A stretch of DNA of 47,616 nucleotides from Candidatus Peregrinibacteria bacterium. GTDB taxonomy: Bacteria; Patescibacteriota; Gracilibacteria; UBA1369; UBA12463. Both the position numbers and the translations under genes were made by a program. Under the pieces are notes generated by a model. It was not told where the DNA came from, did not search any database, and saw only the letters and a program-made list of their open reading frames with translations. How positions within the stretch are numbered: position 1 is the stretch's first letter; every line of letters begins with the position of its first letter. Below are positions 47,376 to 47,450 of the stretch, one piece after another. The stretch lies in the NCBI GenBank assembly GCA_026395555.1, contig JAPLYO010000022.1, positions 1 through 47,616 on the forward strand, written 5' to 3'.

Positions 47376-47450
47376 GCCGTCGTAGCTCAGTGATAGAGCA
47401 CCCCCTTGGTAAGGGGGAGGTCGGGAGTTTGACTCTCCTCGACGGCTCCA
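47376..47450 (+). tRNA. tRNA-Thr (anticodon GGT), with A19 and U56
   Basis: Perfect cloverleaf: acceptor GCCGTCG/CGACGGC, D-stem GCTC/GAGC, anticodon stem CCCCC/GGGGG with loop TTGGTAA, T-stem GGGAG/CTCCT (one G-U), discriminator T and encoded CCA. The D-loop reads AGTGATA (G18 A19) and the T-loop TTTGACT (U56), so the near-universal G19-C56 elbow pair is replaced by A19-U56. Confidence 0.95.

Follow-up and report, generated by a model that had tools for sequence, protein, structure and literature searches.

Compensated A19–U56 elbow pair in a conserved tRNA-Thr(GGU) of a Peregrinibacteria genome, and its recurrence in other bacterial and archaeal tRNAs

The tRNA-Thr(GGU) gene close to the end of a 47,616-nucleotide stretch of Candidatus Peregrinibacteria DNA (the window; contig C19 of its assembly) very probably encodes an ordinary, functional tRNA whose tertiary pair 19–56 has switched from G–C to A–U by compensated substitution. 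Judging from sequence comparison, A19–U56 is an infrequent natural variant that evolved repeatedly in bacteria and archaea, and in tRNA-Thr(GGU) it is apparently retained by selection.

In the sequence and its Rfam alignment, the D-loop of the gene reads A14 G15 U16 G18 A19 U20 A21 and the T-loop reads U54 U55 U56 G57 A58 C59 U60 (Table 1). The rest of the elbow is normal, with G18–U55, U54–A58 and the closing pair G53–C61. The gene matched the whole of the tRNA model RF00005 (positions 1–71 of 71) at 65.4 bits (cut-off 29) with zero stem mispairs, and both the threonine anticodon and the CCA end are present. It therefore fits the canonical class I tRNA (RF00005) on cloverleaf, gathering cut-off and T-loop motif, and also, with an A–U pair that presumably forms, on a Watson–Crick 19–56 contact; the typical G–C at 19–56 is absent, a near-invariant trait that is not taken here as defining the class. 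As it combines A19 and U56 with an otherwise normal structure and is retained in relatives, the gene can be counted among natural A19–U56 tRNAs. The tRNA-Trp(CCA) of the window, used as control, carries GG in its D-loop and TTCGA in its T-loop and thus has a normal elbow. Both the paired change in tRNA-Thr and the normal G19/C56 of the nearby tRNA-Trp had been described in the first-pass annotation, and both descriptions are correct.

Table 1. Positions of the tRNA genes of the window, the elbow residues of tRNA-Thr(GGU) and the tRNA-like elements elsewhere in the same genome (G000)
Feature	Location	Strand	Basis
tRNA-Thr(GGU) gene	window:47376-47450	+	ARAGORN; Rfam RF00005, 65.4 bits across 47376-47447
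Encoded CCA of tRNA-Thr(GGU)	window:47448-47450	+	sequence
Anticodon GGT of tRNA-Thr(GGU)	window:47408-47410	+	ARAGORN
A19 (canonical G19), D-loop partner of the elbow pair	window:47393	+	sequence; D-loop 47389-47395 AGTGATA
U56 (canonical C56), T-loop partner of the elbow pair	window:47430	+	sequence; T-loop 47428-47434 TTTGACT
G18, usual partner of U55 (47429)	window:47392	+	sequence
tRNA-Trp(CCA), in-window control	window:46139-46212	-	ARAGORN and Rfam
tRNA-like element	C21:19756-19907	+	
tRNA-like element	C16:27859-28008	-	
tRNA-like element	C8:118449-118608	+	
tRNA-like element	C18:3263-3411	-	
tRNA-like element, cut by contig end	C23:18-81	-	

The assembly of the window genome (1.20 Mb in 32 contigs) is 90% complete. 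A search with the Rfam tRNA model gave 39 matches at E 0.001, 38 of them above the gathering score, and when these loci were passed to ARAGORN, 39 distinct tRNA genes were called. Their T-loops were TTCGA in 26, TTCAA in nine, TCCGA in three and TTTGA solely in tRNA-Thr(GGU). U56 was thus found in one of the 39 tRNAs and C56 in the other 38, in line with the first-pass claim that the elbow change is specific to this tRNA. That annotation had also proposed a check for another Thr(GGU) gene; none was found among the 39, in an assembly from which, at 90% completeness, a copy could be missing. The other threonine tRNA of the genome is Thr(CGU), with GG and TTCAA. Going by the present assembly, ACC and ACU would have no reader other than tRNA-Thr(GGU). 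These codons occur 185 and 134 times, respectively, among the 14,863 codons of window open reading frames of at least 450 bases, so the cell depends on this tRNA, barring another copy in the missing part of the assembly. That the gene is a pseudo-tRNA or a decaying duplicate is very improbable: one near-invariant pair is altered and 166 bases are left between the gene and the window end, but the stems are without mispairs, CCA is retained, the congeners are identical and the assembly holds no second copy.

Two further features of this tRNA set were observed. No tRNA-Pro, tRNA-Tyr or tRNA-Thr(UGU) was found among the 39 genes of the 90% complete assembly, and these either lie in the missing 10% or are disguised by introns. 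Moreover, three of the 39 genes, tRNA-Cys(GCA) (L019), tRNA-Gly(GCC) (L029) and tRNA-Gly(UCC) (L022), have the T-loop UCCGA, in which C55 replaces the near-universal U55; pseudouridine 55 is therefore impossible there, and G18 could pair with C55 in all three.

The relatives of the gene were searched for with tRNA-Thr(GGU) in 59 related genomes. Identical 75 bases were found in the congeners G001 and G002, and in a third (G003) the gene is split over two contig ends (bases 30–75 and bases 1–40), each part being 100% identical; it was not found in the fourth (G004), a poorer genome. Genomes of another family (G020, G031, G045 and G050) hold genes 92–95% identical with the same A19 and U56. A sequencing or assembly error is scarcely credible: the gene does lie close to a contig end, where locus L017 is cut, but the same double state is present in congeners as well as in other families, and a sequencing error is ruled out by the same 75 bases in two congeners plus the split copy in a third. 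The first-pass argument that a double change speaks against such an error is thereby borne out.

In three genomes of the genus contigs end near this gene: 166 bases past it in the window genome, 103 bases past it in G002 and inside it in G003. Furthermore, a conserved downstream gene is ~700 bases farther from tRNA-Thr in G001 than in G050. The 3′ side of tRNA-Thr (window:47451-47616; L041, L042, L047 and L058) may be an insertion or a strain-variable site.

Covariation of the two positions was surveyed in 89 genomes of the order, using a Thr(GGU) pattern that allowed A or G at 19 and C or U at 56. Among the 69 genes found (from 67 genomes), 56 are G19–C56 and 13 are A19–U56, with no A–C and no G–U (Fisher P value 2.6e-14, a figure that ignores relatedness), so that in related Thr(GGU) genes, which the first-pass annotation had suggested comparing, the two positions never disagree. 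The 13 A–U genes belong to genera g1 (3), g15 (4), g30 (3), g19 (1) and g26 (2), and they have three different D-loops, ten sharing one common 7-base D-loop; sister genera and one g30 member (G038) have G–C. In a tree of the Thr(GGU) stretches built without columns 19 and 56, and resting on 48 columns, the minimum is three joint changes. One independent pair was found on well-supported branches and three on all branches, the covariation being non-significant once relatedness is counted. With one well-supported independent pair, the test within Thr(GGU) alone is without power; the argument depends on the way the change recurs in different isotypes and phyla. Within g30, G038 (G–C) and G045/G050 (A–U) have a common upstream gene beside the tRNA, which places the switch there at an orthologous locus. 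The first-pass reading, in which a genuine single-copy tRNA-Thr(GGU) carries a compensated A19–U56 pair, is supported by the 39-gene set, by conservation in the genus and by covariation in the order.

Transfer of an A–U gene between families was also considered. The f1 and f14 A–U genes are 92–95% identical, yet in genus g2, from the same family, the gene is a different one with G–C. One downstream gene is common to G001 (L041) and G050 (L043), and one upstream gene is common to L043, L046 and L053; the flanking genes tentatively favour an old shared locus. In G071, an 87% complete genome of genus g15, a G19–C56 and an A19–U56 Thr(GGU) are both present, at C2:18-66 and C77:1055-1102, which is either a second gene or contamination.

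Across the phylum, an even sample of 332 genomes was searched with one pattern for A19 with any base at 56 and another for U56 with any base at 19. Each gave 30 matches: the former comprised 28 with U56 and two with C56 (G194 and G327), the latter 28 with A19 and two with G19 (G159 and G236). By eye, three of the four mixed-state matches seem odd or doubtful genes, G194 and G327 having odd anticodon loops and G159 being a doubtful gene. The rare mixed states (two A–C, two G–U) indicate that a Watson–Crick pair is not absolutely required. Read by eye, the anticodons of the 28 A–U genes of the phylum are GCC (11), CGC (9), GGT (7) and GTG (1).

Beyond the phylum, a collection of species genomes was scanned with a pattern demanding A19 and U56 together, which therefore shows spread and not covariation. 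At least 119 stretches were found; 117 remain among the matches listed after two (L065 and L152) whose D-loop is readable with G19 were dropped. Among these 117 listed matches are 73 Gly(UCC), 18 Ala(CGC), 13 Gly(GCC), five Thr(UGU), two Thr(AGU), one each of Lys(UUU), Gly(CCC), Thr(GGU) and Thr(CGU), and two without a type. By named origin, all 73 listed Gly(UCC) matches are from Bacteroidia; the listed Ala(CGC) matches are from Saccharibacteria, Opitutia and Alphaproteobacteria or unclassed proteobacteria, and the listed Gly(GCC) matches are mostly from Clostridia (8 of 13). Five of the seven listed Thr(UGU), Thr(GGU) and Thr(CGU) matches are archaeal, the named ones being nanoarchaea or Pacearchaeota. 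In addition, four U56 tRNAs outside the scan pattern were seen among the at least 119 loci (three Arg(ACG) and one Ala(GGC)), all with A19. The rarity of the elbow change implied by the first-pass annotation is therefore overstated, since numerous bacteria and some archaea also have A–U, chiefly in tRNA-Gly, tRNA-Ala and tRNA-Thr. No description of a natural bacterial A19–U56 pair was found in the openly licensed literature; older comparative tRNA surveys may well list it, and the pair is not claimed here as unreported.

The literature covered describes the 19–56 pair as conserved or invariant. According to excerpts of a review (PMC4810234), the elbow ends in the flat outer face of the pair between residues 19 and 56; RNase P, the L1 stalk and T-boxes stack on this face, while L5, LeuRS, ValRS and others contact the elbow via hydrogen bonds and van der Waals contacts. 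At the L1 stalk it is G2112–A2169 that stacks on the pair (PMC5309774, in excerpt). The minimal T-arm target of TruB is given as GUUYRANYC in an excerpt of PMC7912444, so that U56, as Y56, is allowed. The ‘C56' in the excerpt of PMC6197855 is a T-box residue unrelated to C56 of tRNA. An A–U pair would keep Watson–Crick geometry with one hydrogen bond fewer than G–C, and A19–U56 should still cap the elbow stack A58–G18–R57–19–56 and offer a flat face, on which RNase P, the ribosomal L1 stalk and similar readers could stack. We infer that 19 and 56 do pair, that the tRNA is aminoacylated and takes part in translation, and that the switch is near-neutral. The first-pass annotation had suggested looking at the RNase P RNA and at proteins that recognise the L-shape; the window genome has an RNase P RNA of type A (full-model match, 132 bits), a ribosomal protein L1 gene and a TruB-like protein. 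Since, in the excerpts cited, the readers mainly stack or make general contacts and TruB allows Y56, ordinary function is to be expected, and with it normal maturation and use of tRNA-Thr(GGU).

It is also conceivable that the RNase P, ribosome or ThrRS of this group has been altered to read A19–U56. Such lineage-specific co-adaptation would agree with the A–U state in all four genomes of the genus where the gene or its fragments were found, and with the 7-base D-loop shared by ten of the 13 A–U cases of the order. Yet C56 is kept by 38 of the 39 tRNAs of the window genome, so the general readers must handle both pairs; in addition, sister genera and G038 have G–C and unrelated phyla have A–U. 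As the same pair is found in many bacteria and some archaea, nothing peculiar in the RNase P or ribosome of the lineage is needed, and this alternative is unlikely.

A further possibility, which we regard as tentative and somewhat doubtful, is that the A–U elbow is accepted, or preferred, in a restricted set of isotypes (mainly Gly, Ala and Thr), whose synthetases and other readers do not grip 19–56, while others, such as Leu and Val, keep a directly read G–C. Anticodon GCC, CGC or GGT is carried by 27 of the 28 A–U tRNAs of the phylum, or 15 of 16 once family-by-isotype combinations are counted instead of genes (binomial P value 7.7e-7 for 15 of 16), against a background of three Ala or Thr among nine pattern-compatible tRNAs of the window genome; an alternative, wider background of 5 of 19 is less apt. 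Gly, Ala or Thr also account for 114 of the 115 typed tRNAs among the wide-scan matches listed. In the excerpted table of elbow readers (PMC4810234), which gives selected examples, LeuRS and ValRS are named and no Ala, Gly or Thr enzymes. However, the pattern admits a single base between 19 and A21 and so excludes many tRNAs (those with extra 20a/20b bases), the wide-scan matches listed are mostly from Bacteroidia, and the background is one genome. A19–U56 was found outside the pattern in Arg(ACG) at three Bacteroidia loci and in Ala(GGC) at one Saccharibacteria locus, and with Arg(ACG) the bias clearly has exceptions. The Gly/Ala/Thr bias of the A–U state is thus a lead. In its fuller form, likewise put forward with clear reservation, 19–56 might be a two-state switch (G–C or A–U) that was thrown on many occasions and left hardly any intermediates, A–U being largely confined to isotypes (Gly, Ala, Thr and some Arg) whose synthetases and partner RNAs do not read the edge of the pair.

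A separate family of tRNA-like elements was observed in the same genome (Table 1) and in relatives (L225, L226/L245, L229, L230 and L244). Each has a 7-bp acceptor, a 5-base D-loop (often ATGGT), a 6–7 bp ‘anticodon' stem with a variable loop, a normal TTCGATT T-arm and CCA; in all five copies of the window genome the D-arm to CCA spans 64 bases. On the 3′ side of each lies a terminator hairpin, in most cases flanked on both sides by A- and T-runs, followed by a direct repeat of the variable stem-loop. This repeat is exact over 10–19 nt in eight of ten elements, over 9 nt in G072, and is lacking in the cut C23 copy; in those nine elements an opposite-strand −10-like box (TATAAT, TACAAT, TATCAT or TACGAT) lies 4–7 bases past it. 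For G004 and G072, the best of 200 shuffles gives a repeat at least as long, and the tRNA-like matches of G005 and G007 are without this downstream repeat and −10-like arrangement. From sequence features, a short convergent RNA is predicted whose 5′ end would be complementary to the loop of its own partner, like an antisense pair with private specificity. Rfam gave sub-threshold tRNA/tmRNA matches only, and a strict pattern for the element was found in three of 379 genomes of the phylum, all within the order of the window genome. The C8 copy lies, by eye, between purC-like and purE-like genes. In the congener G003 (C7:9621-9666; L237) a truncated copy has its variable loop running directly into other sequence, as if the T-arm and terminator had been lost when the loop recombined with the downstream repeat. 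Nothing to the point on such a tRNA-like/antisense element was found in openly licensed papers.

For the window genome itself nothing unusual follows from the A19–U56 pair. Natural A–U tRNAs, notably G038 versus G045/G050 at the same locus of one genus, are matched pairs for telling readers that need G–C from those that need a flat Watson–Crick pair. Were the two-state, isotype-dependent reading true, A–U tRNAs would be a natural test set for readers that stack on the elbow versus those that hydrogen-bond to G19–C56.

Compared with the canonical bacterial elongator tRNA-Thr(GGU), the window gene has the same cloverleaf, anticodon, G18–U55, U54–A58 and CCA end, and some of its G–C relatives have the matching 7-base D-loop AGTGGTA; it differs in having A–U in place of G–C at 19–56. 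The tRNA-Gly(UCC) of Bacteroidia (at least 73 loci) likewise combines A19–U56 with otherwise normal D- and T-loops, but is of another isotype and phylum and mostly has an 8-base D-loop; its origin is presumably independent. The compensated pair is also shared, in other isotypes, by tRNA-Ala(CGC) of Saccharibacteria, Opitutia and Alphaproteobacteria (at least 18 loci) and by tRNA-Gly(GCC) and tRNA-Ala(CGC) in the phylum of the window (20 of its 28 A–U genes). Finally, nanoarchaeal tRNA-Thr (L083, L105, L123 and L135) accepts the same amino acid and has A19–U56, in L083 and L135 even with the identical D-loop AGTGATA, yet these genes are archaeal and their anticodons are UGU, GGU and CGU.
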